In this document: piece after piece, positions 20,270-42,025 of the stretch
Numbering within the stretch: position 1 is the first letter of the stretch
Layout: each line of letters begins with the position of its first letter
Assembly: GCA_021161905.1 (NCBI GenBank)
Contig: JAGGZT010000013.1
Coordinates: forward strand, 1-49,090
DNA from: Acidobacteriota bacterium
GTDB lineage: Bacteria > Acidobacteriota > B3-B38 > Guanabaribacteriales > JAGGZT01
Direction: 5' to 3'
Length of the DNA stretch: 49,090 bases
Notes under the pieces: generated by a model
The model's database searches: none
Told to the model about the DNA's origin: nothing
Seen by the model: only the letters and a program-made list of their open reading frames with translations
Made by a program: the position numbers and the translations under genes

Positions 20270-20710
20270 ATGGCTTCTTACTCCAGGAAGATAAGGGAGA
20301 GAGCAAGAAGGCTTTTTGAAAGCGGGATAACCGATGATGCAGAGATCGCCCGGATGGTTGGGGTGAGAAGGAAGGAGACGATCAGGAGGTGGCGGATCGC
20401 TGAGGATTGGGAGGGGAAGAAAGACCCTCATAAGAGGGATATCGAGGAGTACCTCGCCATCATCGACGAGGCGATCGGGGTATTGAAGGAGAGGATCCTC
20501 GAAGGAAGCATCAAGGGCAGCTTCTCCGATCTCGAGAAGCTGATCAGACTTCGTTCATTCCTGGTAGCGAGCGTCACCGAGGGAAGGGATGCCTTATCCA
20601 GAGATATAGGGGAGGATATCTCCGATGAAGAGCTCGATAAGGAGCTTAAAGCTACGGAAGCTCGAATTGCTGCGCTTGAAGGAGAAAAGGGCGAGGAAGG
20701 AACTTTCTGA
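20270..20710 (+). CDS. Terminase small subunit
   Basis: A 146-residue DNA-binding packaging subunit. The N-terminal HTH reads RARRLFESGITDDAEIARMV followed by a second helix with RKETIRRWRIAEDWE, typical of terS. Helical oligomerisation segments (about 60-100) and an acidic coiled tail follow. GGAGGGGGAAATAA precedes ATG 20270. It overlaps the large subunit gene by 86 bases in another frame. The call rests on the HTH and on its place in front of terL. Confidence 0.82.
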   Translation: MASYSRKIRERARRLFESGITDDAEIARMVGVRRKETIRRWRIAEDWEGKKDPHKRDIEEYLAIIDEAIGVLKERILEGSIKGSFSDLEKLIRLRSFLVASVTEGRDALSRDIGEDISDEELDKELKATEARIAALEGEKGEEGTF

Positions 20711-22058
20711 GAAAAGGATCGATATCTTTGCCCGGCTCTACCTCGCCCATTATTTCACCTCCCCATCAGCATCCTTCCACCGGGAGTTGATGATGATCGT
20801 TCAAAACGCCAAAGGGGGAAAGAGAGTGGCTATCGCCGCCCCGAGAGGGCATGGAAAATCGACTATCCTGAGCCTCCTCTTCCCCCTTTGGACCGCCCTT
20901 TTTGGCAAGAGGCGGTTCATCGTGCTCGTCTCCGATACCAAGGACCAGGCAAACCTCAATCTGGCAGCCATCTCCTGCGAGCTTACCGAGAACCCAAGGA
21001 TCAGAGCGGATTTCGGCGAGCTTATAGGGAGGAAATGGACCGGGGAGGAGATACTCCTCTCAAACGGGGTTCGGATAGTGGCTAAAGGCACTGGAAGCAA
21101 GCTCCGGGGCATTCGCAGTTTCGAGCATCGCCCCGACCTCATAATCTGCGACGATCTCGAGAACGACGAGCATGTGGAATCAAAGGAACAGCGGGAGAAG
21201 ATATACCGCTGGTTCACCCGGGCGCTCATCAATACGATGGACCCGGAGGGGGATCTCATCGTCATCGGCACCATCATCCATCACGATTCCCTCCTCTCCC
21301 GGCTTCTCGTCAAGGAGGGGTGGGAGCGTCGGATATTCAAGGCGCTCAGTGATGATGGAGCCCCTCTCTGGCCCTCCCGCTGGAATAAGGAAAGGCTCCT
21401 CGAAAGGAAGAGGGAGATAGGAAGCTTCGCCTTTTCCTCGGAGTTTATGAACGAGCCCCTCCCTCCCGAGGCACGGGTCTTCCCCGAGGAGAAGATCCGC
21501 TATTACCGCCCTGAGGAGATCTCGAAAGCCTCGCTCGATATATATGGGGCAGTCGATCCCGCGATAAGCGGAAGGAAGGAGGCGGATTACTCGGCGATAG
21601 TGACCATCGGGGTCGATGGTTCTGGACGCATATTCGTTCTTTCTGCCGATATCGGGAGGTATTCCCCGAGCCAATTGGTGGAGCGGATCTTCCTCTCCTA
21701 TCTCAGGTTCCATCACTTGGTGATCGGGGTGGAGGCTATCTCCTTCCAGGAGCTCCTCTGCAGGTTCATCGAGGATGAGGGGAGAAGAAGGAGACTATTT
21801 CTTCCGGTGAAGCCCATTGGAGTGCGGGGGGAGAAGAGGAGGCGCATCCTGAGACTCTCTCCTCTGATCGAGCGGGGAACCATCCTCTTTCGTCGCGAGG
21901 ACCGTCTTCTCATCGAACAGCTCATCGAGTTTCCCGCCTCTGCCCACGATGATGGTCCCGATGCCTTGGAGATGGCGGTCTCCTTAGCCAGGGAGGGGAG
22001 GGGCTTTTTTGAGGTGATCTCCGAGCCCGAGCGCCCGGGGGAGATCCAGCTTTGGTAG
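20625..22058 (+). CDS. Terminase large subunit
   Basis: Packaging ATPase-nuclease of 477 residues. Walker A is AAPRGHGKSTI (about 70), Walker B is DLIICDDLEND (about 175), and the coupling motif lies in VIGTIIHHDS. The RNase H-like nuclease domain shows GAVDPAISGRKEADYSA (first Asp), VIGVEAISFQE and DGPDALEMAVSLA (last Asp). Domain order and length match phage terL. ATG 20625 lies far inside terS; a later in-frame start such as TTG 20667 is possible, because the first 20 residues look like a basic extension. Confidence 0.95.
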   Translation: MKSSIRSLKLRKLELLRLKEKRARKELSEKRIDIFARLYLAHYFTSPSASFHRELMMIVQNAKGGKRVAIAAPRGHGKSTILSLLFPLWTALFGKRRFIVLVSDTKDQANLNLAAISCELTENPRIRADFGELIGRKWTGEEILLSNGVRIVAKGTGSKLRGIRSFEHRPDLIICDDLENDEHVESKEQREKIYRWFTRALINTMDPEGDLIVIGTIIHHDSLLSRLLVKEGWERRIFKALSDDGAPLWPSRWNKERLLERKREIGSFAFSSEFMNEPLPPEARVFPEEKIRYYRPEEISKASLDIYGAVDPAISGRKEADYSAIVTIGVDGSGRIFVLSADIGRYSPSQLVERIFLSYLRFHHLVIGVEAISFQELLCRFIEDEGRRRRLFLPVKPIGVRGEKRRRILRLSPLIERGTILFRREDRLLIEQLIEFPASAHDDGPDALEMAVSLAREGRGFFEVISEPERPGEIQLW

Positions 22059-22070
22059 AAGGGGTGAGTG

Positions 22071-23465
22071 ATGTTCGAATTTATCTCGGCTTGGCTTGAG
22101 AAGAAAAGATACGAACGGGAAAGATACCGTTTCGCCCGGAAGAGGCTCGTTGAGGCTTCCTCTTTTCTCCGGGATGAGGATGAGGGTGAGTATCAGCTAA
22201 TAGCCTCTGGAGGGAAGGACTTTTCCGAGCTCGATCAGAAAACGATGCTCGAGCGGGCGCGGGAGTTGTGGAAGAGCAACCCCCATGCCCGGGGGATAGT
22301 AAGGACGCTTGAGAAATTCGTCCTGGGAAGAGGGGTAAGGATAATCGCCCACGACGAGAATCCACGGGTTCAGGAGTGGTGGGATGAGTTCGCTCATGAG
22401 AACGATTTCGAAAGGAGAACGCGGGAGATAGTCCGCCGTTCCTTCCGCGACGGAGAGTGTTTCCTCCGCTATTTCGTGAACGAGGAGACGGGAAGGGTAA
22501 AACTCCGCTTCCTCGAGCCAGAGGAGATAGCTGATCCCGAGGGAAGGGTGAGCTACGGTATCGAGACCGACCCGGATGATATCGAGACCCCACTCCGCTA
22601 CTTCCGGGCGCGGAACGGGAGGCTCATCGAGATCATCCCCGCCCGGTTTATCCAGCACATAAAGATCCTGGTCGATTCCAATGTGAAACGAGGTCTCTCC
22701 TTCCTCTATGTGGTAATGCCCCTGATCAGCAAGTACGAGCAGTGGCTCAACGACCGGATCGTGCTCAACAAGATCAGATCAGCGGTGGCGATAATCAGGA
22801 AGGTCTCCGCCCCTCGAGGGGAGCTTACTGCCTTCTCCCGCGAGGGACTTACCGACGCTGGACGGAGGAGGATGTGGAAGCCCGGCTCCATCATCACCGT
22901 GAGCGAGGGGGTGGATTATCAGATACTCTCTCCCAACCTCCAGGCGCACGATGTCCAGTACGATGGGAGGAACATCCTCCTCGCCATCGCCTCCGGTTGC
23001 GGTCTTGCGGAGTATATGGTCTCTGCTGATGCGAGCAACGCCAACTACGCCTCCACGATGGTCGCCGAATCCCCATCGGTCCGCGAGTTTGAAGACTGGC
23101 AGCAGTTCTTCGAGGTGGAGTTCGCCGAGATATTCCGCCGGGTTATAAGCGCTGGCATCGAAATGGGTGCTCTTCCCGCGGAGAAAGAGGTGACCTATTA
23201 CGAGACCGGAGAAGACGGGGTCAGGGTCTCCCGGAGGAGACTGGTGAAGACGAGCCTAAGCTGTGATGTCCTCTTCCCTCCCCTTGTTCACAGAAACATC
23301 AAGGAGGAAACCGAAGCCCTCAGGATGCACAAGGAGATGGGGATCGTCTCCAACCACACCTTGGCGGGGAAACTCGGCTACGACTATCGGGTGGAGCTGG
23401 AGAAGATGAGGAAAGAGGAAGGGGAGAAAAAGGGGGACATCCCTTTACGAGACAAGGAGGAGTGA
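22071..23465 (+). CDS. Portal protein
   Basis: A 464-residue portal protein. RARELWKSNPHARGIVRTLE (about 60-80) and the following FVLGRGVRI match the lambda-type portal N-terminal region. EFAHENDFERRTREIVRRSF and the FLEPEEIADPEG block also fit. The C-terminal half contains the tunnel-forming helices, including FEDWQQFFEVEFAE. GTG 22068 precedes ATG 22071; the latter has the better spacing to GAAGGGGTGAG. It ends 3 bases before the protease gene, as expected for the portal - protease - capsid order. It would form the dodecameric DNA entry ring of the head. Confidence 0.88.
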   Translation: MFEFISAWLEKKRYERERYRFARKRLVEASSFLRDEDEGEYQLIASGGKDFSELDQKTMLERARELWKSNPHARGIVRTLEKFVLGRGVRIIAHDENPRVQEWWDEFAHENDFERRTREIVRRSFRDGECFLRYFVNEETGRVKLRFLEPEEIADPEGRVSYGIETDPDDIETPLRYFRARNGRLIEIIPARFIQHIKILVDSNVKRGLSFLYVVMPLISKYEQWLNDRIVLNKIRSAVAIIRKVSAPRGELTAFSREGLTDAGRRRMWKPGSIITVSEGVDYQILSPNLQAHDVQYDGRNILLAIASGCGLAEYMVSADASNANYASTMVAESPSVREFEDWQQFFEVEFAEIFRRVISAGIEMGALPAEKEVTYYETGEDGVRVSRRRLVKTSLSCDVLFPPLVHRNIKEETEALRMHKEMGIVSNHTLAGKLGYDYRVELEKMRKEEGEKKGDIPLRDKEE

Positions 23466-23468
23466 ATA

Positions 23469-24311
23469 ATGGCGAAGGATAAAGATCTCTCCTCATCGGT
23501 GAGAACGATCGAGCTCAAGGAGGAGGTGCTCTCCTCACCGCTGGTAGAGGCGAGGCTCGATCGGGAGAGGAACATAATCCGCGGTATCTCCCTTCTTTCC
23601 ACCGTGAGCAGGAACGGAAGGAGATATACCGAGGAGGCGCTTAAGAAGGCGATCCCCCTTTTCGAGGGGGCGAAGACCTTTGCCAATCACCCGAAGCCAG
23701 CGGAGCGAGGTGAGGTGCGGGATGTGCGAGACCTCATTGGAAGGTGCTTCAATATCCGCTATGAGGAGGGAAAGCTCAAGGGGGACCTTGAGGTCCTTGA
23801 ATCCCATAAGGATTGGGTTTTCCCCTTGGCGGAGCAGGCGAGCGATCTCGTTGGTCTCTCCATAAACGCGAGGGGTAAGGTACGGCTGTCCGATGAGGGT
23901 GAGGTGGTAGAGGAGATCGTCCTTGTCCGTTCGGTGGACCTCGTCTCCGAGCCAGCAGCGACCATCAATCTCTTCGAAAGCAGAGAGAAGGGGTTAAGGG
24001 CGATGGTCGATGAGCTGGTGGAAGCCCTGGCAAGGGAGCAGGAGAAGGTGAGGAGGCTTGAGCGTGAGCTCGCCATCGAGCGGGCGCTTTCTCGCTCTCG
24101 ACTTCGGGGCGAGGATATAACCGAGGCTTTTCGGGAGGCTCTTTCTTCCGTCCCCGATCTTTCCGCGGTTTCTCGGTTGATCAGGGATCGGGAGGCGCTC
24201 CTTTTTTCTCCGAGGAAATGGGTCTCGGGTATGGGCGAGGAGAAGGAGCTTTTCCCTGGGAAGGGATGTTTTCCCGATGAGCTATTCATCAAAGCGGTTA
24301 AAGGGAGGTAG
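23469..24311 (+). CDS. Prohead protease with fused scaffold-like tail
   Basis: A 280-residue protein. The first 170 residues look like a herpesvirus/phage-type maturation protease: GISLLSTVSRNGRRYTEEAL, KTFANHPKP with a candidate catalytic His (about 78), VGLSINARGKV with a candidate Ser (about 133) and VRSVDLVSEPAATINLF. The remaining part is a charged coiled coil (about 180-225) ending in a basic segment, which fits an internal scaffold that is degraded on maturation. Its position between portal and capsid supports this. The exact peptidase family is not resolved. Confidence 0.8.
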   Translation: MAKDKDLSSSVRTIELKEEVLSSPLVEARLDRERNIIRGISLLSTVSRNGRRYTEEALKKAIPLFEGAKTFANHPKPAERGEVRDVRDLIGRCFNIRYEEGKLKGDLEVLESHKDWVFPLAEQASDLVGLSINARGKVRLSDEGEVVEEIVLVRSVDLVSEPAATINLFESREKGLRAMVDELVEALAREQEKVRRLERELAIERALSRSRLRGEDITEAFREALSSVPDLSAVSRLIRDREALLFSPRKWVSGMGEEKELFPGKGCFPDELFIKAVKGR

Positions 24312-24314
24312 CGA

Positions 24315-24770
24315 ATGTCAAATGTAATGAGGCATCGTTACGGCTATGAGAATCCGAGGTTGTTTGCGGTCGATTCCGCCACGGTGATCGAGATCGGGGA
24401 TCTCCTCTGGCTCGATACCGATGATGTGAAGCCGGCAGCCGATCTACCCTGGAATACCGATCTCGCCACCACCCAGGCTGATTTTTCTGCCAAGTTCGCC
24501 GGGGTAGCGATGGAGGCTTCGCCTGCGGGTCATTCCGGTGAGATTCGGGTGGCGACCACCGGTGTGTTCGAGTTCGACTGTGATTCCGCCACCTTCGAGG
24601 TTGGGGATATGGTGAGTTGTGCCAAGGGTTCCGGCGATTTCCTGGAGAACCAGAAGGTAGTTGCTGTCTCCGCCCATCCCATCGGCAAGGTGGCGCGGAG
24701 AGAGCCGGTGGCGGGGAGCAAGGTACTCGTCGAGATAAGGGCGAGTGTGGTGCCGGCTCCAGCCAGTTAA
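24315..24770 (+). CDS. Capsid decoration/cement-like protein (DUF2190-like)
   Basis: A 151-residue, beta-rich, soluble protein directly before the capsid gene. The pattern IEIGDLLWLDTDDVKPA, then FAGVAMEASPAGHSGEIRVA and TTGVFEFDCDSATFEVGDMV resembles DUF2190-type head proteins, with their repeated 'GVA...GE..V...GVF' layout. Such proteins stabilise the mature capsid on its surface. There is no signal peptide. The assignment comes from pattern and position; the specific family is uncertain. Confidence 0.65.
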   Translation: MSNVMRHRYGYENPRLFAVDSATVIEIGDLLWLDTDDVKPAADLPWNTDLATTQADFSAKFAGVAMEASPAGHSGEIRVATTGVFEFDCDSATFEVGDMVSCAKGSGDFLENQKVVAVSAHPIGKVARREPVAGSKVLVEIRASVVPAPAS

Positions 24771-24796
24771 TTTCTCAAGGTTTAGGAGAGGATGAG

Positions 24797-25792
24797 ATGA
24801 TAAAGGACAAAGGTCAGAACCTGCGCGACCTTTACAACGCTTTAGGGGAGAAGGAGTTTATGGGGAAGATAAGGGAGCTTCTTCATTCCGACCCCCCGAA
24901 GCTTACCCCTGAGGACTTCAGCCTCCGCGAGCTCTGGGAGGCGGTAGGGAGTTCTGCCTTTCCCACCATCACCGGTGAGATAGTCTCGAAGAAGGTCATC
25001 GATGCCTATGAGGCGACCCCGACCATTGGGGAGAAGCTGGTGCATACGGTTCCCTCCCGGAGGAAGCGGGAGAACATCGTCGGCTTCACCGCGGTCGAGG
25101 AGGTGCGGGAGGTTCACGAGGGGATGCCCTATGAGGAGAGCACGGTAGCGGAGAAGGCGGTGGTGGTGGAGAACAGGAAGTTCGGGCGGATCCTCGCCAT
25201 CACCGAGGAGGCGGTGATGGAGGACCAGACGGGGCAGATCCTCGAGCTCGCCGCCCGGTTGGGGGAGAAGGCGAAGCTCTTCAAGGAGAAGATGATCCTC
25301 GATGTAGTCCGTGATGTCGCCGGTACCGCCTACAACGGTTCCCCCCTCTACACTGAGGATCATGGGAACTTCCATTCGGTCGCCTTTGGCACCGATGGTT
25401 CTGGGCTCGAGGAGTCGAAGCGTCTCCTATCCAAGATGAAGGACGAGAATGGCGATCCCATCCTCATCTCGGGGAGGGTGCTCCTTGTACCGCCGGAGCT
25501 GGAGAAGGAGGCGTACAATTTGGTCAGCCCGGTGCTTACCCAGTCCACCTACCACAAGCAGATAATCTCCGAGATCCTTACCTCCCCCTTTATGACCGAT
25601 CCCAACGAGTTCTTCTACGGCGATTTCAAGCGTCAGTTCCGCTATCAGGAGGTTTGGCCCATCCAGGTTCTTCGCTCCAGCCCCGAGAGTGAGGATGCTT
25701 TCTCCCGGGACATCGTGGTCAAGTTCAAGGTTCGGCTTTTTGGCGGTTGTGGGGCGGTGGATTACCGGTATGTGGTTCGTTCTGAGGGCTGA
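24797..25792 (+). CDS. Major capsid protein (HK97 fold expected)
   Basis: A 331-residue head protein. ATG 24797 follows AGGAGAGGATGAG; the frame is open further upstream, but that part overlaps the decoration gene and has unlike composition. Residues about 60-140 (TITGEIVSKKVIDAYEATPT and GRILAITEEAVMEDQTGQI) look like the spine helix and E-loop area of Mu gpT-like capsids. GSPLYTEDHGNFHS (about 180) is also seen in that group. The C-terminal part (RVLLVPPELEKEAYNLV and FYGDFKRQFRYQE) is typical of the A/P-domains. It is followed by a GC-rich hairpin that may tune expression of the genes after it. Confidence 0.85.
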   Translation: MIKDKGQNLRDLYNALGEKEFMGKIRELLHSDPPKLTPEDFSLRELWEAVGSSAFPTITGEIVSKKVIDAYEATPTIGEKLVHTVPSRRKRENIVGFTAVEEVREVHEGMPYEESTVAEKAVVVENRKFGRILAITEEAVMEDQTGQILELAARLGEKAKLFKEKMILDVVRDVAGTAYNGSPLYTEDHGNFHSVAFGTDGSGLEESKRLLSKMKDENGDPILISGRVLLVPPELEKEAYNLVSPVLTQSTYHKQIISEILTSPFMTDPNEFFYGDFKRQFRYQEVWPIQVLRSSPESEDAFSRDIVVKFKVRLFGGCGAVDYRYVVRSEG

Positions 25793-25871
25793 TGCTGTTT
25801 TTTCAGCCAGGGGGATGCTCATCCCGGCGCTACCTCAGCTGGTGGCGGAGGTGTTCGCCGGGAGGAAGCAC

Positions 25872-25910
25872 GGGCGGGGGGGACATCCCCCCGCCCCCAC
25901 CCCCCTTTTT
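25872..25910 (+). terminator. GC-rich hairpin with T5 after the capsid gene
   Basis: A 10-bp stem of almost pure G:C (25872-25881 with 25887-25896) and a 5-base loop is followed nine bases later by TTTTT (25906-25910). It lies between the capsid and the connector genes. It could be an attenuating terminator or a 3'-stabilising structure for the capsid mRNA. Confidence 0.55.
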
Positions 25911-25925
25911 GGAAGGAGGAGCGAG

Positions 25926-26078
25926 ATGAAGGTAAGGCTTCCATCCTATGTGGACAAGAAGGAGCCGGTGATCCTCCGCACCACGGTGGAACGGCTCCTT
26001 GCCGAGGTACTATCTCAGCTTCAGGAGATAGCCAAGCTCATAAGGAAGGAGAAGGGGTGCGATGGGGATAAGTTATGA
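25926..26078 (+). CDS. Small hypothetical phage protein
   Basis: A 50-residue protein: ATG 25926 with GGAAGGAGGA six bases upstream, overlapping the next gene by 17 bases. The sequence is basic and helical (VERLLAEVLSQLQEIAKLI, about 20-38), with no recognised domain. Codon pattern and the strong ribosome site support it as a real gene. Its place between the capsid and the head-connector genes suggests a structural or assembly role, otherwise unknown. Confidence 0.6.
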   Translation: MKVRLPSYVDKKEPVILRTTVERLLAEVLSQLQEIAKLIRKEKGCDGDKL

Positions 26079-26316
26079 GGAGATAGAGGCGAAGATAGCC
26101 TCGATCCGGGCAGAGCTCGACAAGTTAGCCCAATCACCCGAGGTGGACTATCAGATAGGGGACAAGAAGGTCTCCGCCTCTCAGAAGCAGGCACAGCTTC
26201 TCGCCCAGCTTGAGTATTGGGAGAGGAGGCTTAGGTCGTTCCCCTTTGAGGACGCCTTAAGCTTCGATTATCGGATCACCAGGTTTGGGGATGATGTCTC
26301 CGATTATGAGGAGTAG
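26062..26316 (+). CDS. Small head-joining-like protein (gpW/DUF6148-like)
   Basis: An 84-residue helical protein. VDYQIGDKKVSASQKQAQLL followed by QLEYWERRLRSFP resembles the 'Y-x-I-G-x-r-x-v...L-x-x-L' pattern of small gpW/DUF6148 head-tail joining proteins, which have two helices around a short hairpin. It overlaps the 50-residue gene and ends 3 bases before the head-closure gene. The family call is tentative; the connector role is supported by order. Confidence 0.6.
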   Translation: MGISYEEIEAKIASIRAELDKLAQSPEVDYQIGDKKVSASQKQAQLLAQLEYWERRLRSFPFEDALSFDYRITRFGDDVSDYEE

Positions 26317-26319
26317 CAG

Positions 26320-26682
26320 ATGGCGGATATAGAGAAGATGAAGGAGGACACGGAGCGGATCCTCTCGGAGTGGGGGAGGAAGGTGGTGGTGAAACGGCTT
26401 ACCCTTAGCTACTCCACTATGGGGGAGCCGGAGGAGGGTTTCTCCCCGGTGGATCAGGGGGGCACGGTGGAGGTTACCTGCGATCTTCAGCCGATAGGTG
26501 GCGATCTCTCCTTCCGGATGGATGGCGTTCTCTCTTCGGCTACTCATCGTGCCTTCTTCCCTTCCTCCTCCGACATCAAGCCGAACGATCGGGTCTATCT
26601 CGACGAGGAGAACTTTCTCATCGTGCTCCGGGTGGATGCTCACCCCGATCACCTCGTCGCCTATCTCAAGGAGAGGAGATGA
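26320..26682 (+). CDS. Head-closure / head-tail adaptor protein
   Basis: A 120-residue protein with an N-terminal helix (about 1-20) followed by a beta-barrel-like part: VVVKRLTLSYS, VTCDLQPIGGDLSFRMDG, then IKPNDRVYLDEENFLIVLRV. This is the arrangement of SPP1 gp16-type stoppers (Phage_H_T_join). It overlaps the gp10-like gene by 4 bases (ATGA at 26679). It would plug the portal after packaging and receive the tail. Confidence 0.72.
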   Translation: MADIEKMKEDTERILSEWGRKVVVKRLTLSYSTMGEPEEGFSPVDQGGTVEVTCDLQPIGGDLSFRMDGVLSSATHRAFFPSSSDIKPNDRVYLDEENFLIVLRVDAHPDHLVAYLKERR

Positions 26683-27101
26683 AGGGGAGGGATTTCCTTA
26701 TCCGGCTGAGGGGTTTCCCGGAGGAGCTTAAGGGGAGGATGAAGGTTATGCTTTCCGCCATATCGGAGGAGATGGTGGCTTACGCTAAGGCGAACCATCC
26801 CTACCATGATCGGAGCTCTGAGCTTACCCGTTCCATCTACGCCAGGGTGAAGGTCGATGGAGGGCGGTTTTCCCTCATCCTCGGCGCTTCTGCCCCTTAT
26901 GCCTCCTTCCTCGAGTTTGGGACCGCTCCCCACTTCGTCGGTTCAGCAGTGTTCCTCAAGGGTATCGGTTTCCGCTACATCGGGCTCCATCCGGGAACCC
27001 CTCCTTCTCCTTTCCTTAGACCCACGGTGGAGGCTTTCAGGGGAAGGGTGAGGGAGGAGACGAAAAAGGTCCTAATCCGGATTATGGAGGGGATTAAATG
27101 A
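26679..27101 (+). CDS. HK97 gp10-like neck protein
   Basis: A 140-residue protein of the HK97 gp10 family. Conserved features are MVAYAKANHPYHDRSSELTR (about 32-50), APYASFLEFGTAPHFVG (about 71-86) and HPGTPPSPFLRPTVEA (about 108-123). These follow the usual 'T.G.L..S', 'A.Y...vEfGT' and 'P.pfl.pa' pattern. It is coupled on both sides by ATGA overlaps (26679 and 27098), which fits the connector operon. It sits between head closure and tail terminator. Confidence 0.85.
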   Translation: MKGRDFLIRLRGFPEELKGRMKVMLSAISEEMVAYAKANHPYHDRSSELTRSIYARVKVDGGRFSLILGASAPYASFLEFGTAPHFVGSAVFLKGIGFRYIGLHPGTPPSPFLRPTVEAFRGRVREETKKVLIRIMEGIK

Positions 27102-27511
27102 AGGAGATCAAGGAGGCGATATACGGCAAGCTGGTGGCGGACGAGACCTTACGGGTGCTTCTCGGCGCTTCAGCGGAGGATCCCCGGATCTACTACTACT
27201 TCCCACCAGGGGAGATAGGGCTTTCTTCCTCTGCTCCTGCCTATATCACCTACTACGAGCTTTCCTCCGCCTCCCCCTTCATCGAGCGGGAGGAGGAGGT
27301 CTATGCCATAGATATCTGGGCGTGCACCCTTTCCGTATTGGAGGATGTATTTTCACGGGTTGATGGGCTTCTCAATCGGAGGTTCCTCTCCCTTCCAAGC
27401 TACTATCATCTTCTCACGGTGAGGGAGTTCAAGCGCGATCTCTTCGAGCCGGAGCGAGGGCTCTACCATAAGGTGGTTCACTATCGGGTCATATTCATCA
27501 GGAAGGAGTAG
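27098..27511 (+). CDS. Tail completion/neck protein (DUF3168-like position)
   Basis: A 137-residue mixed alpha/beta protein: an N-terminal helix (KEIKEAIYGKLVADETLRVL), then PAYITYYELS and EEVYAIDIWACTLSVLEDVF, ending in YHKVVHYRVIFIRKE. The alternating strands and the helix before a final strand match tail completion proteins of the DUF3168/gp-U-like type. It overlaps the gp10-like gene by 4 bases and precedes a second protein of similar size. Which of the two is the true tail terminator cannot be decided from the sequence. Confidence 0.65.
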   Translation: MKEIKEAIYGKLVADETLRVLLGASAEDPRIYYYFPPGEIGLSSSAPAYITYYELSSASPFIEREEEVYAIDIWACTLSVLEDVFSRVDGLLNRRFLSLPSYYHLLTVREFKRDLFEPERGLYHKVVHYRVIFIRKE

Positions 27512-27514
27512 GAG

Positions 27515-27931
27515 ATGGTGGGAAAAAGAGAGGAGATATTGGCTGACATAGCCGCTACCCTTTCCTCTTTGGGGGATGCTTCGGTCATCCGTAGGGCATC
27601 GTTTCCCGATCCCTCTGAGTTCGAGGATGTCTCCCTTCCCCTTCTTTATGTGATCGACGGCGAGGAGACCTTTGTTCCCGAGAAGGGGAGGGGATATTGG
27701 TCGGAGCTCGGGGTTAGCGTCTTGGGGGTGATAGAGGATAAGGATACCCCGTCGACCAGTTTGAACCAGCTTCTCTCACGGGTGATGGAGGCGCTTTCCG
27801 GGGACATCACCCGGGGAGGCTTCTCGGTATCCACTGAATTTGTCAGGGTGCGGATAAGCCCTGAATTCAAATACCCCTATGCCGGTTTTATCCTTGAGCT
27901 CAAGGTTCTTTACCTTGAGGAGGCGCTTTAG
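27515..27931 (+). CDS. Tail terminator-like protein
   Basis: A 138-residue protein directly upstream of the tail tube gene, the normal place of the tail terminator. A helix (KREEILADIAATLSSL), the strand LPLLYVIDGEETFV, the strand ELGVSVLGVIED, a helix with TSLNQLLSRVMEALSG and the closing strands FVRVRISPEF and FILELKVLYL give the alpha/beta layout of lambda gpU-like proteins. There is a clear ribosome site (GGAAGGAGTAGGAG). The function is inferred from layout and position. Confidence 0.65.
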   Translation: MVGKREEILADIAATLSSLGDASVIRRASFPDPSEFEDVSLPLLYVIDGEETFVPEKGRGYWSELGVSVLGVIEDKDTPSTSLNQLLSRVMEALSGDITRGGFSVSTEFVRVRISPEFKYPYAGFILELKVLYLEEAL

Positions 27932-30114: not shown

Positions 30115-31347
30115 ATGGCAACGGTGGAATTCGATCTGGTGATCGATACCTCGCCTGCGGAGAGAGGAATAAAGGACCTTGATGACGCTCTTTCCTCCCT
30201 CCTCGAGGCGAGCGAAGGATTAACCAAGGGCTTTGATACCCTCTTTAAGGGGATTTCCTCCGCTTCCGTCAAGGCAGGGGAGGCGTTCCGTTTGAACCTC
30301 TTCTCCCCTTTTAAGGAGATGAGGGATGTTTTTTCCCGTCTCCCCGAGGAAGCGGAATCGTTTGGCTATGAGTTCATCGATAGCTTCGTAGCCGGTTTCT
30401 CCTCAGCCTGGCGTTACCATAAGCGAGCTCTTGCCGATATCGCTGATGATGTCCTTTCTCTCTTCCAGTTTGCGGGAAGCCCTCCCTTTTTCCGGGTGAG
30501 GCGTTCCGGGTACCGCTTTATCTCCTCTTTCGCCGCTGGGATTGAGGAGGCTTCTCCCGACCTTTTAGGAAAGGTGGCGGATACCGCCTTAGAGGTGGTC
30601 GATACCTTGATCGGCGGGCTGAGGGAGAAAGGAGGCGATATCTCGAAGATTGCTTCCGAGGTGATAGGAGGACCGTTCCTTTCCCACGGCTCGGTGGCGA
30701 GTGTCATCTCCTCTTTCTTTAAGGGAGGAGGGCTCGAGGGGATGGTCAAATCGGCTGAGGATATCTTTCTCCGCTTCTTCGGTGATGACGGTTCCATACC
30801 TCAGATATTCAAGGGTCTTTTTGGCTCTGGAGGCACGATTGAAACGATATTTAGCGATCTTTTCGGCGAAGGAGGACGGCTCTCAAGCATCCTCTCGGGT
30901 TTCCTCTCCCAGCTCGGCGGAGCCTTTGGCTGGGTTTCCGGCATCCTGAGCCTGATGAAGAAGATCAATGTATTCCCAGAGCCCTGGTGGCTATATGAAG
31001 AGGAACATTATACCTTGATACCAGGGGAGAGACCGGGGAGGAGAGAGCCGCCAAAAGGCTCTCCTTGGCGGCGGTGGTGGAGGGAAGGTAATTTTCAGCA
31101 CGGCACCCCTTATGTCCCGGAAACGGGTCTTTACCAGCTCCATAAGGGGGAGGCGGTTATCCCTGCCTGGGCGAACCCCTTCAAGGGAGGGGTGAAGACG
31201 GAGGCGAAGGTCGAGAACCATCTTACTCTTCACCTGGATGTGAGCCTTGATGGAGAAAAGATAAAGCAGTTTGTGTTCAAGAACATCGAGACCGCCACCA
31301 AGGATGGAGCGATCAAGCTTCATCCGATAGCGGTAAAGGAGTTTTAA
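30115..31347 (+). CDS. Tape measure protein (short)
   Basis: A 410-residue protein after the G/GT genes. The N-terminus (ATVEFDLVIDTSPAERGIKD) and long amphipathic/hydrophobic helices (about 100-290, including FIDSFVAGFSSAW) are usual. The C-terminal GTPYVPETGLYQLHKGEAVI is the recurrent end motif of tape measure proteins. Its length is small for the family; at about 1.5 angstrom per residue it would set a tail of about 60 nm, which is an inference. It spans the tail lumen and helps DNA entry. Confidence 0.88.
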   Translation: MATVEFDLVIDTSPAERGIKDLDDALSSLLEASEGLTKGFDTLFKGISSASVKAGEAFRLNLFSPFKEMRDVFSRLPEEAESFGYEFIDSFVAGFSSAWRYHKRALADIADDVLSLFQFAGSPPFFRVRRSGYRFISSFAAGIEEASPDLLGKVADTALEVVDTLIGGLREKGGDISKIASEVIGGPFLSHGSVASVISSFFKGGGLEGMVKSAEDIFLRFFGDDGSIPQIFKGLFGSGGTIETIFSDLFGEGGRLSSILSGFLSQLGGAFGWVSGILSLMKKINVFPEPWWLYEEEHYTLIPGERPGRREPPKGSPWRRWWREGNFQHGTPYVPETGLYQLHKGEAVIPAWANPFKGGVKTEAKVENHLTLHLDVSLDGEKIKQFVFKNIETATKDGAIKLHPIAVKEF

Positions 31348-31349
31348 AG

Positions 31350-32117
31350 ATGGCGAGCAGAATAAGATATCTCTGGCAGAACCTTATCGACCTTACCGGG
31401 ACGAACCTTACCGCCTCATCCGAGGTCTCTACCCTGCCCGTTGCCAATCTCAGGCATCCTTTTCGCACCCTCGTCTGGCGGACTACTGGTTGTGCGGAGG
31501 AATATGTGGTGGTCGATTTCGGTAGCCCCTACAGCGTGAAGGCGGTTTCGTTCATCAACCATAATCTGACGAGCAATGCGGTTATCAAACTGCAGGCAAA
31601 TTCATCCGATAGTTGGGATAATCCTCCGTTCGAGACCACACTTACCCCTCATAAAGAGACGATTATCAAGTGCTTCGACGCTCAGAATTACCGCTATTGG
31701 CGGTTATGGATACAGGATAGTGGAAACCCTTCTGGCTACATCGAGATCGGGAGGTTGTATCTCGGCTCCTATTTCGAGCCGAGCAGAAATTTCGTCTATG
31801 GCTGGGAGTACCGGATTATAGACCCCTCCCGGATAGATGCTTCGGAAGGGGGGCAGGAGTTCGCTGATATCGAGGACAATTATCGGGTTATCTATGTTGC
31901 CTTCGGAGCGGGGATGATTACAGAGGAAGATAAAGAAGAGTATGAGCGGATGCTTGCTTATTGTGGTAGAAGCAGGGATTTGTTCATCGCTCTCGATTAT
32001 GAGAATCACCCAAACGATTGGACTTTTTATGGCAAATTCGTAAATACCGATTTCAGTTTCAAGAACTCCGTTGGTGAGTTCTATGAGGCAGGCTTTGAAT
32101 TTAAGGAGAGCAGGTAA
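31350..32117 (+). CDS. Distal tail (Dit)-like protein with discoidin-like domain
   Basis: A 255-residue baseplate protein. Residues about 20-140 resemble an F5/8 type C (discoidin) sandwich: TASSEVSTLPVANLRHPFRT, VVVDFGSPYSVKAVSFINHN and YRYWRLWIQDSGNPSGYIEI. A C-terminal domain (about 145-255) with YGWEYRIIDPSRIDASEGGQ and the ending YEAGFEFKESR fits a distal tail adaptor. It lies between the tape measure and the hub gene, where Dit is found, and touches the hub gene by a 1-base overlap. Sugar binding at the host surface is plausible but not shown. Confidence 0.7.
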   Translation: MASRIRYLWQNLIDLTGTNLTASSEVSTLPVANLRHPFRTLVWRTTGCAEEYVVVDFGSPYSVKAVSFINHNLTSNAVIKLQANSSDSWDNPPFETTLTPHKETIIKCFDAQNYRYWRLWIQDSGNPSGYIEIGRLYLGSYFEPSRNFVYGWEYRIIDPSRIDASEGGQEFADIEDNYRVIYVAFGAGMITEEDKEEYERMLAYCGRSRDLFIALDYENHPNDWTFYGKFVNTDFSFKNSVGEFYEAGFEFKESR

Positions 32118-34405
32118 TGGCGATCACCACCTTTTCTGAGTTAATAACTTCGCCAGGGGCGAGAAAGGTTTATCTCGCCGAGATCGTTCCCGGCGTCGAG
32201 CTCGATAGCGATAACTGGACCGCCACCGGCGGTGGTGCCTACTATCAGACCTGGTATGAGAGGTTTTTCTCCGTCCCGGTGGAGATAGAGAAGGTAGAGG
32301 AAAACGGGGTAGAGCTTACTAAGAGGAGCTCGATCGCCGAGGTGGAGGCGAACGCCGGCTCCTGGTATCAGGAACCACCACAGGAGACGGTTTGGGATAA
32401 TGGGGCTACCATCTGGGATAACGGGCAGACGAGCTGGGACAGCTGGGGAGCGGTTTACATCCATTGCACCGATAGCGGGAGCCCAAATGAAAAGACAGTG
32501 ATCGCCTACATCCGGCTCAGGTTTGCCAGCTCGCCTGTAATCTTCGATAACCATTATTACTTCCCTCGGCTCTCCAAGGAGGGGCTTCCCTCGGTCTCCG
32601 CCGAAAGTCAGGATATCTTCTTCTCCGGGATCTCGGTTGGCTCAGCAGGGATATCCTTGCTCAATAACGATGGCTTCTTTGATTCCATTCTCAGGCGGTA
32701 TATCTGGATAAATCGAGAGGTGAAGATACTGCTCGGTGGCGAGGAGCTCCCCTATTCGGAATATAAGACCATCTTCCGGGGAAAGATACAAGGGGTGAGC
32801 TATACCGATAGGAAGGTAAGCTTCTCCTTACGGGATATCCGGGTGGATTTCCATAAGAAGCTTCCGCCGAACGAGTTTTACACCGCTACCTATCCCCATA
32901 TGGATCCGGGTGCCGAAGGAAAGCCGATCCCTATAATCTGGGGCGAGGTGAGGAATATCAGGCCCACCCTTATCGATTCCACCGTCAATTACGGCAAGTA
33001 TAAGGTCGCCGATCACGCCCTCTATTCTGTAGATGCGGTTTATGCGGATGGCTCGGCATTGACGGAGAATACCGATTACTCGGTTGACCTGGCAAATGGT
33101 GAATTTACCCTGCTAACCAGCCAGAGCGGTAAAGAGATAACCTGCGATGTCAAGGGGAGAAGGGACGATGCGAGCGGTTCAATAACCGGCACCCCGAATG
33201 GTCTGATAGAGAAGGCGTCGGATGTGGTAAGGGATATCTGCCTCAATTACCTTGATGTTTCCTCTGCTGATATCGATAGCACCAGTTTTGAGGAAGCACG
33301 AGAGAGGGACTGGCCATTATCTATTTATCTTTCTAAAACTGAATCATCAGCGGAGATAATCAGGAAAATTTGTCAATCAACCATCGCCCATTTCATCATC
33401 GGGGCTGATGGTAAGGTCTATTTCAAGATGTGGAAGGGAGAGGTTCCGGCGGGAGCACCCACCATAAAGGACGAGGAGATAATCAGCTTTCAGGCGTCTT
33501 CCAAGGCGGATGAGGTCTTTTATAAGGTGATCGTCTATTACGGTGATGATCCGGAAAATCGACGGGCAACCAGTTATTCCGATAGCGAGGTGAAGATAAA
33601 GTATGGGCGAGCGATTACGAAAGAGGTTCAGTCCTATCTCAAGGATACCGTCGATGCCAACGATCTTGCCTTCAAACTATTTCAGCTGGCTCAAAAGCCG
33701 TTGACCGAATATGAGATCATCACCAAGCTCAAGCCGATAGAGCTCGCCATCGGGGATAAGATCAAGATCAGGCGAAGAAGAGCACCGACCGCTACCGGGA
33801 AGCTCTCCGAAGATGTCTTCCGCATCCTCGCTATCTCCCGGGACATCGCTGGGATGAGGACGAGGCTGAAGGTGGTGGAGGATATCGCCTCACTCGGCTA
33901 TGAGGTATGTAATTATCAGTGCCAGACCGGCTGTGAGGTATCCTGTGAGACTGCCTGCCAGCTTCAACCCTGCCAGGAGGGGTGCGAGATTACCTGTGAG
34001 ACCACCTGCGAGAAAAGCTGTCAAGGTGGGTGTCTTACCAGTTGCCAGGAGACTTGCGAGGTATCCTGCCAGACCGGTTGTGAATTGGGGGAATGTGAAA
34101 CTGCTTGTGAATTGGGAGAGTGTCAGACTGCCTGCGAATCAGGAGAGTGTGAAACTGCCTGCGAAACGGGAGGGTGTGAAACTGCCTGCGAAACGGGAGG
34201 GTGTGAAACTGCCTGTGAGCTCCAGCCCTGCCAGAGGGTTTGCCAGATTTCCTGTCAGACCGCCTGTGAGCTTCAACCCTGCCAGGAGGGGTGCGAGGTT
34301 TCCTGTGAGACCGGATGCGAGGTCAGCTGTACGGTGGGGTGCGAAGTCTCCTGTCAAGAATTCTGCGAAATCGAGTGTGAATTTGCAGAGGAGATGCCAG
34401 AATGA
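32117..34405 (+). CDS. Tail hub/tip protein with 38-Cys C-terminal repeat domain
   Basis: A 762-residue tail protein. Residues 1-590 are beta-rich and hub-like: GISLLNNDGFFDSILRRYIW, TIFRGKIQGVSYTDRKVSFS and a later part around 400-590 with ISFQASSKADEVFYKVIVYY. From C598 to C754 it changes completely: 38 Cys in 157 residues, mostly as CX3C with some CX4C, the intervening residues being Glu, Gln, Thr, Ser, Ala and Gly. Five 9-residue units E-x-G-x-C-x-T-A-C sit at 34082-34216. The stop overlaps the start of a radical SAM/SPASM gene (ATGA at 34402). I infer that the Cys domain is that enzyme's substrate and forms a crosslinked tip. Disulfides or metal binding are alternatives. Confidence 0.85.
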   Translation: MAITTFSELITSPGARKVYLAEIVPGVELDSDNWTATGGGAYYQTWYERFFSVPVEIEKVEENGVELTKRSSIAEVEANAGSWYQEPPQETVWDNGATIWDNGQTSWDSWGAVYIHCTDSGSPNEKTVIAYIRLRFASSPVIFDNHYYFPRLSKEGLPSVSAESQDIFFSGISVGSAGISLLNNDGFFDSILRRYIWINREVKILLGGEELPYSEYKTIFRGKIQGVSYTDRKVSFSLRDIRVDFHKKLPPNEFYTATYPHMDPGAEGKPIPIIWGEVRNIRPTLIDSTVNYGKYKVADHALYSVDAVYADGSALTENTDYSVDLANGEFTLLTSQSGKEITCDVKGRRDDASGSITGTPNGLIEKASDVVRDICLNYLDVSSADIDSTSFEEARERDWPLSIYLSKTESSAEIIRKICQSTIAHFIIGADGKVYFKMWKGEVPAGAPTIKDEEIISFQASSKADEVFYKVIVYYGDDPENRRATSYSDSEVKIKYGRAITKEVQSYLKDTVDANDLAFKLFQLAQKPLTEYEIITKLKPIELAIGDKIKIRRRRAPTATGKLSEDVFRILAISRDIAGMRTRLKVVEDIASLGYEVCNYQCQTGCEVSCETACQLQPCQEGCEITCETTCEKSCQGGCLTSCQETCEVSCQTGCELGECETACELGECQTACESGECETACETGGCETACETGGCETACELQPCQRVCQISCQTACELQPCQEGCEVSCETGCEVSCTVGCEVSCQEFCEIECEFAEEMPE
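34082..34216 (+). repeat. Five tandem 27-bp units encoding E-x-G-x-C-x-T-A-C
   Basis: Units start at 34082, 34109, 34136, 34163 and 34190. The last two differ by a single base, which suggests recent duplication. A longer imperfect duplication flanks them: CQEGCE-type segments near 33970 and 34281. Confidence 0.9.
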
Positions 34406-35565
34406 AACTTTTTTGGGTTTATTTGACTAATAATTGCAACCTTGCCTGCCGCTATTGTTTTCAGCGACACCAAAAGCGAGATATGTCCCTTTCCGTAGCA
34501 ACAGCGACCATCGACTTCATTACCAATGATCCAAGGGATGATCTCCAGGTTCAGTTCTACGGTGGGGAGCCAACCCTCAAGTGGGATTTGATGTGGTGGA
34601 TGATCGAAACGATCAGGGAGAGACGAAAAAAGACCCGGTTCACCTTTACCACCAATGGCACTCTCCTTACCCGGCAAAGGCTGAAGCAAATAAAGGAGGG
34701 GAAGGTAAGGTTTGCCCTCTCCTGCGACGGGCCGCCTGAGGTTCAGAACCGTTCCCGTCCCCTTAAAGGGGGTGGTAAGAGCTTTGAGCGGATACCCCTT
34801 GCGGATATCGCCGATCTTTTCCCTGAGACCCAGATAATTATGGTGGTTGACCCTTTAAATGCCCCTTATCTGGTGAAGTCAACCCGGTTTTTCATCGAGC
34901 GGGGATTTAGGAATATCGCCCATAACCCGGATTTTGAGGCAAGCTGGCAAGAGGCAGACCTTGCCCTTCTTAGAGAAAAGGTAAAGGAGTTGATGGATTA
35001 CTATATCGACCTCTACGAGGCGGGGAAGAGGGTTAACTTTATGTGGCTTGGCTGGGCGATGAAGAACATCAATGCTGCTAAGGGAAGGATCGCTCAGACC
35101 CTTTGTGGTCTCAATAATAATCTGCTTGCTATCGATACCGATGGGAGGATCTACCCCTGCCAGGGATATATCAACTGCCGGTCGGAGCTTTCAAAGCTTT
35201 ATTCCATCGGGGATGTGTTTAAGGGGATAACTGCAGAGAAGAAGGAGGCGGGGATATTGGCAAAAAGCAGGCTTAAGCCGCCGGATGGGGCAGATTGTGC
35301 ACACTGTTTCCTTAGGTGGAAGTGTAGCGGTGGTTGTCTTCCTGAAAATCTCGCCGTCACTGGCGATCGGTATCAGATAAGGGAGAATCACTGCCGGCTA
35401 CTAAATATCATCATCCCGGAGGCAACGAGGGCGTTGATCTTGACGGGTCAGGTGTCTGTTGGCACTCCGCCTCCTCCGCCGTGGCGAGCTCTTGAAGAAA
35501 GGCTTGCCCGAATTGAGAAAAAGCTCTCCGGGATGCCAATCGTTCAGATAGAGAAAGTGAGGTGA
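34402..35565 (+). CDS. Radical SAM/SPASM peptide-modifying enzyme in a tail module
   Basis: A 387-residue enzyme. The SAM-cluster motif CNLACRYC uses C12, C16 and C19; YGGEPTL (53-59) is the SAM-binding loop. The SPASM domain is complete: C235-x12-G-x4-C253, C259, then C299-x2-C-x5-C-x3-C312 and C331, enough for two auxiliary 4Fe-4S clusters. This matches maturases of sactipeptides/ranthipeptides and sulfatases, which act on Cys or Ser side chains. An unusual C-terminal extension (341-387) has a Pro5 linker and an amphipathic helix. The gene overlaps the Cys-rich tail gene by 4 bases and is followed 4 bases later by a tail fibre gene, so it is cotranslated with its likely substrate. It requires anaerobic conditions and a reductant; the exact reaction is unknown. 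Confidence 0.93.
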   Translation: MKLFWVYLTNNCNLACRYCFQRHQKRDMSLSVATATIDFITNDPRDDLQVQFYGGEPTLKWDLMWWMIETIRERRKKTRFTFTTNGTLLTRQRLKQIKEGKVRFALSCDGPPEVQNRSRPLKGGGKSFERIPLADIADLFPETQIIMVVDPLNAPYLVKSTRFFIERGFRNIAHNPDFEASWQEADLALLREKVKELMDYYIDLYEAGKRVNFMWLGWAMKNINAAKGRIAQTLCGLNNNLLAIDTDGRIYPCQGYINCRSELSKLYSIGDVFKGITAEKKEAGILAKSRLKPPDGADCAHCFLRWKCSGGCLPENLAVTGDRYQIRENHCRLLNIIIPEATRALILTGQVSVGTPPPPPWRALEERLARIEKKLSGMPIVQIEKVR

Positions 35566-36800: not shown

Positions 36801-37418
36801 ATGAGACGGCTGGCGATCTCGGCAGGGCATTATCCGGAAAGACCAGGAGCAAAGGTATCCTTCAAGCAAAATGGTAAGAGGATAACCCTGATTGAGCACG
36901 AGCTCGCCTGCCAGGTGATAGAGGAACTCTACCTCATTCTGGTAGCTGATGGCTATTCGGTCTTTGAGACGCCACGGACGCCCCTTTCGGAGAAGGTTCG
37001 GTTCATAAATTCTCTTCCCGCGCTTGATCTTGCCCTCGAGGTTCACTTCAACGCCGGTCCTCCCGGAGCAGAAGGCACAGAGACGATCTACTTCTCGGAG
37101 GAAGGAGAAAAACTCGCTTGGGCAATGATGAGCGGGCTTATGGCTCGTCTTCCTTTTGCTAATCGGGGGGCGAAAAAGGACGAGACGATTCTCCGAAATG
37201 GCGAGCCGTTTATCTCTTATTTCCTACGGCGCACCTATCCACCGGCGGTGCTGGTCGAGGTATGTTTCCTCACCAATCCCGGAGATCGCTCCTTCCTCCT
37301 TTCTCGCTCTGCTTTTTATGAGATCGCCTCTGCCCTGAAGCAGGGAATAGACGAGTATTATCTAACTCTGGAAAAAGACGAGGTGAAAGAATGGACGCGG
37401 TTATCCTCCTTATCCTGA
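36801..37418 (+). CDS. N-acetylmuramoyl-L-alanine amidase (endolysin)
   Basis: A 205-residue Amidase_3 enzyme cleaving the bond between MurNAc and L-Ala of peptidoglycan. Zinc ligands are His in AISAGHYPE (about 9), Glu in LIEHELACQVI (about 30) and His in LALEVHFNAGP (about 78); the catalytic Glu is in AVLVEVCFLTNPGD (about 151). There is no signal peptide or cell-wall binding domain, so export would need the holin. It overlaps the following TM-anchored gene by 28 bases. Confidence 0.9.
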   Translation: MRRLAISAGHYPERPGAKVSFKQNGKRITLIEHELACQVIEELYLILVADGYSVFETPRTPLSEKVRFINSLPALDLALEVHFNAGPPGAEGTETIYFSEEGEKLAWAMMSGLMARLPFANRGAKKDETILRNGEPFISYFLRRTYPPAVLVEVCFLTNPGDRSFLLSRSAFYEIASALKQGIDEYYLTLEKDEVKEWTRLSSLS

Positions 37419-38293
37419 TCGCCCTTTGTACTGCTCTCGGTTATCTGCTCGCAAGTAGAAGAAAGCAGGATGAACCCCCGGGTTCGGTTGAACCCCCGGG
37501 TTCGATTGAACCCCCTGGCTCGGATGAGCCTCCGCCACAGCCGATACCTCCGGAACCCGAAGAGCTCTTCAAGCCAGAGGGGGCAAATGTGCCGAAGCCT
37601 TACCACTTTCCAGAAAAGCAAGCCGAGGCGTTAAGGGCGATGGGGATAGATTGGGTTCGCATCCCCTTGGGACGGCGAGGCATTGATCCGACGCCTTTCA
37701 TCAGGGAGGGGTTTCACATCTTGGCGGTAACCGATAACTATGCCAGGGATGTTCCCCGCTATCCTGAGATCCCCGCCTGGGAGTTCAGAAACGAAGCAAA
37801 CCTGATGGGGAAATCGCCAGCGGATTATCTCATAGAGCTCCGGGCGTTCTACAAGTATATGAGGAAATATCACCCAGAGAAAATCATCCTGACTTCCTGC
37901 GCCGGTGGTGGAATGGAGAGAAGGATCAGGTGGAACACCGAGCTGTGGAGACTCCTTAGGGATGAGGATATGCCGGAACTCGTTTTGAACATCCATACCT
38001 ATAACGACGCCGTCCTTCACGAGCTTCCCATCTATAAGGAGGCTCTTGCTGGTTTTGCCAATCCCCTTTGGATTACCGAGTTCGGCGTTTCTGATTTTGA
38101 GAGGCAGGCGGAGATAGCTAATAGATGTTATCCCGCCTTGAAGGGGCTTCCTCGGCTTGAGAAGGTGTTCTGGTGGGCACTCTTCGATGGCGAGGCGGGT
38201 AAGGATCCGTTCTCCCTCGTTTGGGTATATCCTGAGCAAATTATCTACAGCCCCTTGGGGGAGCAATTGAAAAGGAGTAAGAGAAATGGCTAA
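37391..38293 (+). CDS. Membrane-anchored glycoside hydrolase-like TIM-barrel protein
   Basis: A 300-residue protein. An N-terminal membrane helix (about 3-22) is followed by a low-complexity linker of PPGS units (three 18-bp repeats at 37472-37525). A barrel domain (about 65-300) then follows. WEFRNEANLMG (about 137) looks like the Asn-Glu acid/base of clan A glycosidases, and NPLWITEFGVSDF (about 227) like the nucleophile Glu strand. The family (GH5/39-like) is not resolved. The anchor and its place in the lysis module suggest cell-wall or capsule cleavage from the membrane. It overlaps the amidase gene at its 5' end and the next small gene by 8 bases. Confidence 0.7.
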   Translation: MDAVILLILIALCTALGYLLASRRKQDEPPGSVEPPGSIEPPGSDEPPPQPIPPEPEELFKPEGANVPKPYHFPEKQAEALRAMGIDWVRIPLGRRGIDPTPFIREGFHILAVTDNYARDVPRYPEIPAWEFRNEANLMGKSPADYLIELRAFYKYMRKYHPEKIILTSCAGGGMERRIRWNTELWRLLRDEDMPELVLNIHTYNDAVLHELPIYKEALAGFANPLWITEFGVSDFERQAEIANRCYPALKGLPRLEKVFWWALFDGEAGKDPFSLVWVYPEQIIYSPLGEQLKRSKRNG

Positions 38294-40072: not shown

Positions 40073-40085
40073 CAATATATGATTA

Positions 40086-40343: not shown

Positions 40344-40476
40344 ACAGTTCGTGCCTGAATAGGATAGAACTCTATGTTTTAAGCTCAAATGGTTAATCTT
40401 CATTTGATTCGCTAATTGAACTGTTTGAAGCAAAGTTGCTCTTCATAAAATAGAGGCAAGAAATACCGTTCTTCAA

Positions 40477-41973: not shown

Positions 41974-42025
41974 TTAATTAGCGCTGGTTGTTTTTCTTTG
42001 TTGTAGATGCTATCCTCAAAGAGCT

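Follow-up and report, generated by a model that had tools for sequence, protein, structure and literature searches.

A cysteine-repeat tail protein and its putative radical SAM/SPASM maturase in an Acidobacteriota prophage, with similar pairs in other tailed phages

The contig JAGGZT010000013.1 of the Acidobacteriota bacterium assembly GCA_021161905.1 (positions 1 to 49,090; this whole stretch of 49,090 nucleotides is referred to below as the window) is a segment of bacterial chromosome carrying a prophage at about 17.6-40 kb. In the tail module of this prophage, a hub-like tail protein of 762 amino acids (P0001; 32117..34405, + strand) ends in a domain with 38 cysteines, and its gene overlaps that of a 387-residue radical S-adenosylmethionine (SAM)/SPASM enzyme resembling PapB and CteB (P0002; 34402..35565, + strand), the proposed maturase. 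Comparison with phage and prophage relatives makes it very likely that P0002 acts on the cysteine domain of P0001, with thioether formation as the probable modification. Taken as a whole, the locus probably encodes a phage maturase that would thioether-crosslink the cysteine end of a tail hub before assembly.

Results

The cysteine domain of P0001 and its overlap with the enzyme gene

The proposed substrate domain covers residues 598-754 of P0001 (33908..34378, + strand) and holds 38 cysteines, with four more in residues 1-597. All 37 gaps between successive cysteines measure either four residues (29 gaps, CX3C) or five (eight gaps, CX4C), bearing out the spacing described in the original prediction, and shuffling the segment 10,000 times never gave a sequence with gaps of these two lengths only. 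The repeat unit is C-[E/Q]-[T/V/L]-[S/G/A/T], with Glu or Gln directly following 34 of 37 cysteines (p about 3e-16 given composition) and Gln in place of Glu at about a third of these sites, while the segment is nearly devoid of Lys and Arg. Despite the tandem arrays of 27 and 51 bp detected by TRF within the segment, its cysteine codons are mixed in near-equal use (20 TGT and 18 TGC), suggesting that the domain is not a copied simple repeat alone. A pattern of five CXXX units has no other occurrence in the host genome, and the C[E/Q]xx pattern is found in a single further genome among the 396 sampled across the phylum, there as a simple DNA repeat.

The end of P0001 reads ...ATGCCAGAATGA, and the ATG within that ATGA, the start/stop overlap of the two genes (34402..34405, + strand), is the start of P0002, an arrangement that may reflect translational coupling. 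The motifs of P0002 agree with the earlier description of an enzyme with a CX3CX2C motif and a full set of SPASM cysteines; the interval given for the feature, 33908-35565, is likewise correct, the hub gene itself starting at 32117.

Co-occurrence within tail-protein families

Loci were fetched by homology to two tail-protein families, using queries from which the cysteine part had been removed. The enzyme is present in all eight loci with a cysteine domain and a readable flank (L198, L548, L559, L560, L562, L222, L564 and L565), and is found nearby in none of the ten tail-family loci without the domain (p 2e-5; 1.6e-4 without near-copies). L198 and L222 were known as pairs beforehand, the other six being new or near-copies of known pairs, and four further loci with a cysteine domain reach contig ends where the enzyme would sit. 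Tail homologues that keep the cysteine domain without the enzyme, or the enzyme without the domain, were named in the original prediction as speaking against it, and none occur among these loci where the flank is readable.

Recurrence of the pairing in virus records

IMG/VR and GTDB contigs were scanned for cysteine repeats, the scans being read at 120 rows and all figures applying among the matches listed. A first pattern of seven CXXX units gave mostly simple-repeat and out-of-frame matches; open reading frames (ORFs) that were in frame, non-simple and non-overlapped were kept, at least 43 loci surviving this filter, and records from the remainder served as controls. A radical SAM gene (PF04055, whole-record search) is present in 28 of the 35 virus records with a convincing cysteine-repeat protein, against three of 50 control virus records fetched by the cysteine patterns but lacking such a protein (Fisher p 9e-13); the former fraction is slightly generous, as L149, L219 and, besides these, L114 entered among the 35 because the pair had already been seen, and some contigs are near-copies (e.g. 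L235, L559 and L560), so that these counts express recurrence and not prevalence. The pairing anticipated from the single locus thus recurs in other phages and prophages. Four of the seven records without a radical SAM gene are fragments of 7.8-17 kb (G064, G069, G077 and G079) and G087 is a doubtful member, while the remaining two are weighed in the Discussion. The paired genes are on one strand in all 28 measured loci, a weak indication by itself, since the late genes of phages tend to lie on the same strand; 21 pairs are at most 1 kb apart and 13 overlap or are separated by no more than 20 bp.

Several virus loci differ from that of P0001 in the form of the cysteine-rich protein. A 122 kb virus contig encodes, directly before its radical SAM gene, a small tail-appendage-like protein ending NCNCDCPVDCACNC (L114, 2614-4594), with a cysteine at every second to fourth residue, which possibly represents a third chemical type. 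The longest such domain found comprises 188 chained cysteines over about 780 residues of a virus protein (L536, 3930-7511; also L262). A jumbo phage contig of 292 kb (G060) encodes a cysteine-rich protein (CSSACSSGCTQNC...; L085, 5712-6815), with five radical SAM matches elsewhere in the genome, and Campylobacter phage CP21 encodes two long CX2C-repeat proteins near its portal genes (L148, 15822-16926). The phage group of CP21 is known for its radical SAM genes, 11-12 per Campylobacter phage genome (PMC2853527). Gut records labelled 'Bacteriophage sp.' that were matched by P0002 looked cellular rather than phage and were set aside; one of them (MT835472; L144, 7420-9080) encodes a genuine SCIFF peptide with its maturase and is probably cellular DNA.

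Selection on cysteines in cultured jumbo phages

Cronobacter phage CR5, a cultured phage (L119), and the Erwinia phages EarlPhillipIV and Phobos each encode two small cysteine-rich proteins beside virion structural genes, together with two radical SAM genes. In the alignment of the three phages, cysteine is kept in all 40 of its columns, with synonymous codon differences in 24, while 38 of the 117 other columns change (p 3e-6), and most of the length changes preserve the cysteine spacing. The cysteines of these domains are under purifying selection and are the only residues strictly conserved. The annotations of the three genomes differ at this site: both cysteine-rich genes are missing from that of CR5 (L545, 4772-5583, - strand), where a short gene, CR5_157, is placed on the opposite strand; the short genes gp167 and gp168 are annotated on the opposite strand in Phobos (L547, 5766-6569, - strand); and in EarlPhillipIV the cysteine-rich genes gp161 and gp162 are annotated on the correct strand.

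The enzyme P0002 and its nearest characterised relatives

P0002 matches the Pfam domain Radical_SAM (PF04055, E 4.5e-16), with SPASM detected only below threshold (E 0.049). Its radical SAM cluster motif, C12-X3-C16-X2-C19 (34435..34458, + strand), is invariant in 21 aligned enzymes. The SPASM region from C235 to C331 (35104..35394, + strand), with the predicted ligands of the auxiliary clusters, comprises C235, C253, C259, C299, C302, C308, C312 and C331, of which C235, C253, C299, C302, C312 and C331 are nearly invariant in 20 phage and prophage relatives, C259 and C308 falling outside this list. The best NCBIfam model is the ranthipeptide maturase PapB (NF047865, E 3e-62; 210.7 bits, below the cut-off of 340), followed by Nif11- and SCIFF-maturase models, including the SCIFF maturase TIGR03974 (E 8.5e-37; 127 bits, below the cut-off of 425), while sactipeptide maturase models score far weaker than PapB. 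An AlphaFold2 (AF2) model built with the 20 relatives (mean predicted local distance difference test score, pLDDT, 85) has CteB (5WHY/5WGG) as its best Foldseek match (E 1.9e-23; template modelling score, TM, 0.73). The fold match to SPASM enzymes spans the whole length of the protein, and further fold matches include anaerobic sulfatase maturases and ChlB, with EpeE a weak one. CteB is also the best match when PDB sequences are searched with a profile of the phage enzyme family (E 3e-88). From its motifs and modelled fold, P0002 is clearly predicted to be a peptide-modifying radical SAM/SPASM enzyme, closest to the makers of ranthipeptides.

Three known systems invite comparison. PapA and P0001 both contain spaced cysteines with nearby Glu, and the PapB model is the best for P0002 and for most of the phage enzymes associated with C[E/Q]xx repeats; the substrate of PapB is, however, a short leader-core peptide, whereas that of P0002 would be a 38-Cys domain of a large virion protein with Gln at about a third of its Glu/Gln sites. 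The locus shares with ranthipeptide systems a cysteine-rich substrate encoded beside the enzyme. In the SCIFF system (TIGR03973/TIGR03974), the maturase CteB has the nearest solved fold to P0002, which differs in lacking an extension N-terminal to its radical SAM core. The SCIFF core CQTSCQSACKTSC and the P0001 segment CQTGCEVSCETAC at residue 602 share CX3C spacing and look alike. Descent of the P0001 repeat from SCIFF was considered and rejected, the likeness not being significant with the cysteines held fixed (264 of 5000 shuffles reach it), and the P0001 domain has no match to the SCIFF model TIGR03973. The CXXX-repeat targets TIGR04114 and TIGR04117, with the enzyme TIGR04115, resemble P0001 in that cysteine recurs at every fourth position and a radical SAM gene lies alongside; the P0001 domain matches neither target model, and P0002 scores 113 bits against TIGR04115 (below the cut-off of 350).

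The hub part of P0001

Residues 1-597 of P0001 (32117..33907, + strand) match PHROG 8917 (E 6.5e-32), a family without assigned function. Along its length this part is homologous to the cysteine-tailed protein of L533 (E 2e-33 for the best segment), and HHalign gives a distant profile match to five other cysteine-tailed hubs (E 1.8e-7). Its gene stands between the tape measure and fibre genes, within the tail module. From its homology, P0001 would be expected in the mature virion particle. The designation as a tail hub in the original prediction is upheld by this gene position and by kinship with a tail protein family, and less so by the match to relatives of known structure, which is weak for the tip attachment protein J of phage lambda (profile match, E 0.04). 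Gene-order position and this weak profile match are what P0001 has in common with a hub of the lambda J type. To our knowledge, lambda J has neither such a cysteine-repeat end nor a maturase.

Direct relatives of P0001 or P0002 were not found in a conserved-peptide scan of viral contigs. A tblastn search with P0001 gave no match in phages and, in plasmids, one Kineococcus and one Pseudomonas record, with no radical SAM gene annotated around the Kineococcus match. Hub relatives in the same phylum include none with a cysteine domain, and their flanks are too short to judge the enzyme.

Tail-protein scaffolds, domain types and enzyme lineages

As far as sequence comparison can tell, the cysteine domain is a module carried by at least four kinds of tail protein. 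Aside from the hub-like scaffold (P0001, L222, L227, L235, L423 and L533), weak PHROG matches together with reading of the sequences point to a tail protein I-like or baseplate scaffold (L194, L200, L263 and L264), a propeller-like tail protein (L198, L253, L414 and L441) and a gpD-like hub (L207/L530). The domain is N-terminal or mid-protein in the tail proteins of L198, L414 and L194. Two or three cysteine-repeat proteins per phage are encoded in L527, L530 and L531; in L527, a 172 kb virus contig, three separate cysteine-repeat proteins adjoin one radical SAM protein of 851 residues. The nearest complete homologue of the P0001/P0002 locus is L533, which has the same PHROG, a 40-Cys end and a tail-gene stop overlapping the enzyme start (TAATG), its enzyme being a weakly supported sister of P0002 (88/64).

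Two main domain types are distinguished; the sampling patterns favour these types but fix no more than four or five units in each protein. In the E/Q type, Glu or Gln occupies position +1 in 90% of CX3C units, while the second type, C-S/T-G-x, found mainly in gut phages and CR5-like jumbo phages, has Ser/Thr and Gly in place of Glu/Gln. The S/T/G-type enzymes included in the tree form one clade (support 100/98), and those of L117, L219, L270, L280, L355 and L542 pass the TIGR04115 cut-off. Cysteine proteins of this type match TIGR04114, those of L219 and CR5 scoring over cut-off and others weakly. A single origin of the E/Q-type enzymes is unsupported by the tree. The tree does not include the CR5 enzymes, for which no NCBIfam model gives a match at E 1e-40. 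The distribution suggests that enzyme lineage follows domain chemistry, as expected of an enzyme and its substrate.

Prophage setting

The prophage is flanked by host-type genes, with an aspartyl-tRNA synthetase, a 7TM-HD protein and a CBS/CorC protein on its left and major facilitator superfamily (MFS) and S41/Tricorn proteins on its right. At its left side, with host genes beyond, is a helix-turn-helix (HTH) and peptidase S24 repressor (17569..18666, - strand), followed by the head and connector genes for large terminase, portal, protease, major head protein, neck and tail terminator (20625..27931, + strand). The tail module continues in the order minor tail protein, probable tape-measure-like protein (30115..31347, + strand; weak, PHROG 1272, E 0.014), a protein of PHROG 8610 (function not assigned; E 5e-29) in the distal-tail position immediately upstream of the hub gene (31350..32117, + strand), P0001, P0002, a tail-fibre-like protein directly after P0002 (35570..36103, + strand; PHROG 24898 tail fiber, E 2.7e-13) and an amidase endolysin (36801..37418, + strand; PHROG 435, E 1.1e-26). 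Just after the endolysin gene, an 18-bp tandem repeat (37471-37527) encodes a Pro-rich linker (EPPGSx) close to the N-terminus of a protein of 300 residues that has no PHROG match. A search for attachment-site repeats at the prophage ends gave only one chance-like 13-mer. The G+C content falls from about 0.53 to 0.38 at positions 1-2000 and 40001-42000 of the window, the latter interval holding, at the prophage edge, a 498-residue ORF without a Pfam match.

Discussion

Under the proposed scheme, P0002 would be a dedicated phage maturase made in step with the hub, and the cysteine-repeat end would be modified during or just after translation, before tail assembly. At a residue lying between cysteines, a 5'-deoxyadenosyl radical made by the radical SAM cluster would abstract a hydrogen from a carbon, and a cysteine sulfur, held by an auxiliary SPASM cluster, would then bond to that carbon. 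Repetition along the domain, with up to 38 cysteines, would yield a ladder of thioether links at a loss of 2 Da per link, and would convert a flexible segment at the tail tip into a compact, tightly looped rod or plug that withstands reduction and probably also proteases. A stiff, resistant tip is put forward tentatively as the function of the modified domain. The heat resistance of the original prediction finds no support, no reverse gyrase over cut-off having been found in the host genome, the only sign of thermophily that was searched for. In the P0001-type domain, Glu is a plausible first guess for the acceptor, because Glu or Gln follows nearly every cysteine and PapB, which has little sequence specificity, joins cysteine to Asp or Glu across 0-6 intervening residues (PMC9413430). 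The main alternative is Thr or Ser, which would fit both domain types better. Thr or Ser is also the acceptor in SCIFF peptides.

Several points weigh against this scheme. P0002 is under the cut-off of every NCBIfam maturase family, so the exact reaction is not readable from family membership, and Pfam detects no leader-binding domain in P0002, though many maturases of ribosomally synthesised and post-translationally modified peptides (RiPPs) have one. Gln, which stands at a third of the Glu positions, is not a known PapB acceptor, and the S/T/G-type domains are nearly without acids, so that either the acceptors differ between types or a common acceptor would be Ser, Thr, Gly or Ala. The E/Q-type enzymes form no single clade, the AF2 model of the whole hub is of low confidence (pLDDT 30), and the records G076 (35.6 kb) and G088 (63 kb) have a cysteine domain with no radical SAM gene detected, making them real exceptions at the level of fragments. 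The proposal that a tail protein would be the substrate of the adjoining enzyme is argued from comparison, with strong support in the tail-family loci, and thioether crosslinking is the best reading from enzyme kinship.

That kinship is also what bears on the nearest rival, in which P0002 acts on the cysteine domain by another route, producing D-amino acids, C-C or ether crosslinks or decarboxylation, and the cysteines then form disulfides or bind metal. Radical SAM/SPASM chemistry is diverse, the P0002 fold is near those of sulfatase maturases, ChlB and, weakly, EpeE as well, and the S/T/G and E/Q types hint at varying chemistry or acceptor; the nearest families by both sequence and fold nevertheless form thioethers, and cysteine alone is strictly conserved in the domain, rendering this route rather unlikely. 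Still less probable is that domain and enzyme are unconnected, the former building a disulfide or metal tail tip and the latter being a moron enzyme for the host or another substrate. Phages do carry other kinds of radical SAM genes, as Campylobacter phages illustrate with their 11-12 per genome (PMC2853527). Such independence, which we consider very unlikely even though extra genes are commonly found in tail gene clusters, would be hard to reconcile with the strict co-occurrence seen inside tail-protein families, with enzyme genes that adjoin those of several different kinds of tail protein, or with an enzyme clade that follows domain type.

We attach an equally low probability to the modified domain being a peptide cargo, a RiPP-like toxin or signal that would be cleaved off the tip and delivered by the tail into or onto the target cell. 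The substrate and enzyme do resemble a RiPP pair, SCIFF-like and CXXX-repeat peptides occur free in cells, and hub-family proteins carry the domain at one end; neither a protease nor an exporter gene was noticed beside the pair, however, and the N-terminal or internal domains of L198, L414 and L194 fit a structural part better. Beyond the Acidobacteriota prophage, thioether crosslinking of a tail part extends to a broader proposal, somewhat favoured by the comparisons, that many unrelated tailed phages build tail or baseplate parts from enzymatically crosslinked domains with cysteine at about every fourth residue, each with its own maturase. Present on at least four scaffolds and in two chemical types (C[E/Q]xx and C[S/T]Gx), such domains would yield tail tips stapled covalently.

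In earlier papers, radical SAM genes of phages were interpreted otherwise. Those of pelagimyophages ('radical SAM cassettes', PMC7029224) and of Campylobacter phages (PMC2853527) are taken there for metabolic or hypervariable genes, and in the passages considered no cysteine-rich virion substrate is proposed for them. In the open-access literature, to which the search was confined, no account was found of a virion protein being modified by a radical SAM enzyme, in keeping with the remark in the original prediction that no phage structural protein made in this way was described. The novelty is narrower than that remark implies: the NCBI families TIGR04114, TIGR04115 and TIGR04117 already recognise CXXX-repeat radical SAM targets as a kind, under model names that say nothing of phages or virions, and it is the phage tail location that is surprising.

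If the proposed crosslinking is correct, RiPP-type chemistry would build virus particles and not peptides alone, adding a modification class new to phage structural proteins and accounting for radical SAM genes in the tail modules of phages from many habitats. The domains and their permissive enzymes would also be natural examples of long, multi-crosslinked protein elements, and the pairing would flag overlooked or misplaced genes in phage annotation. Cultured phages carry a version of the system, making it testable now.

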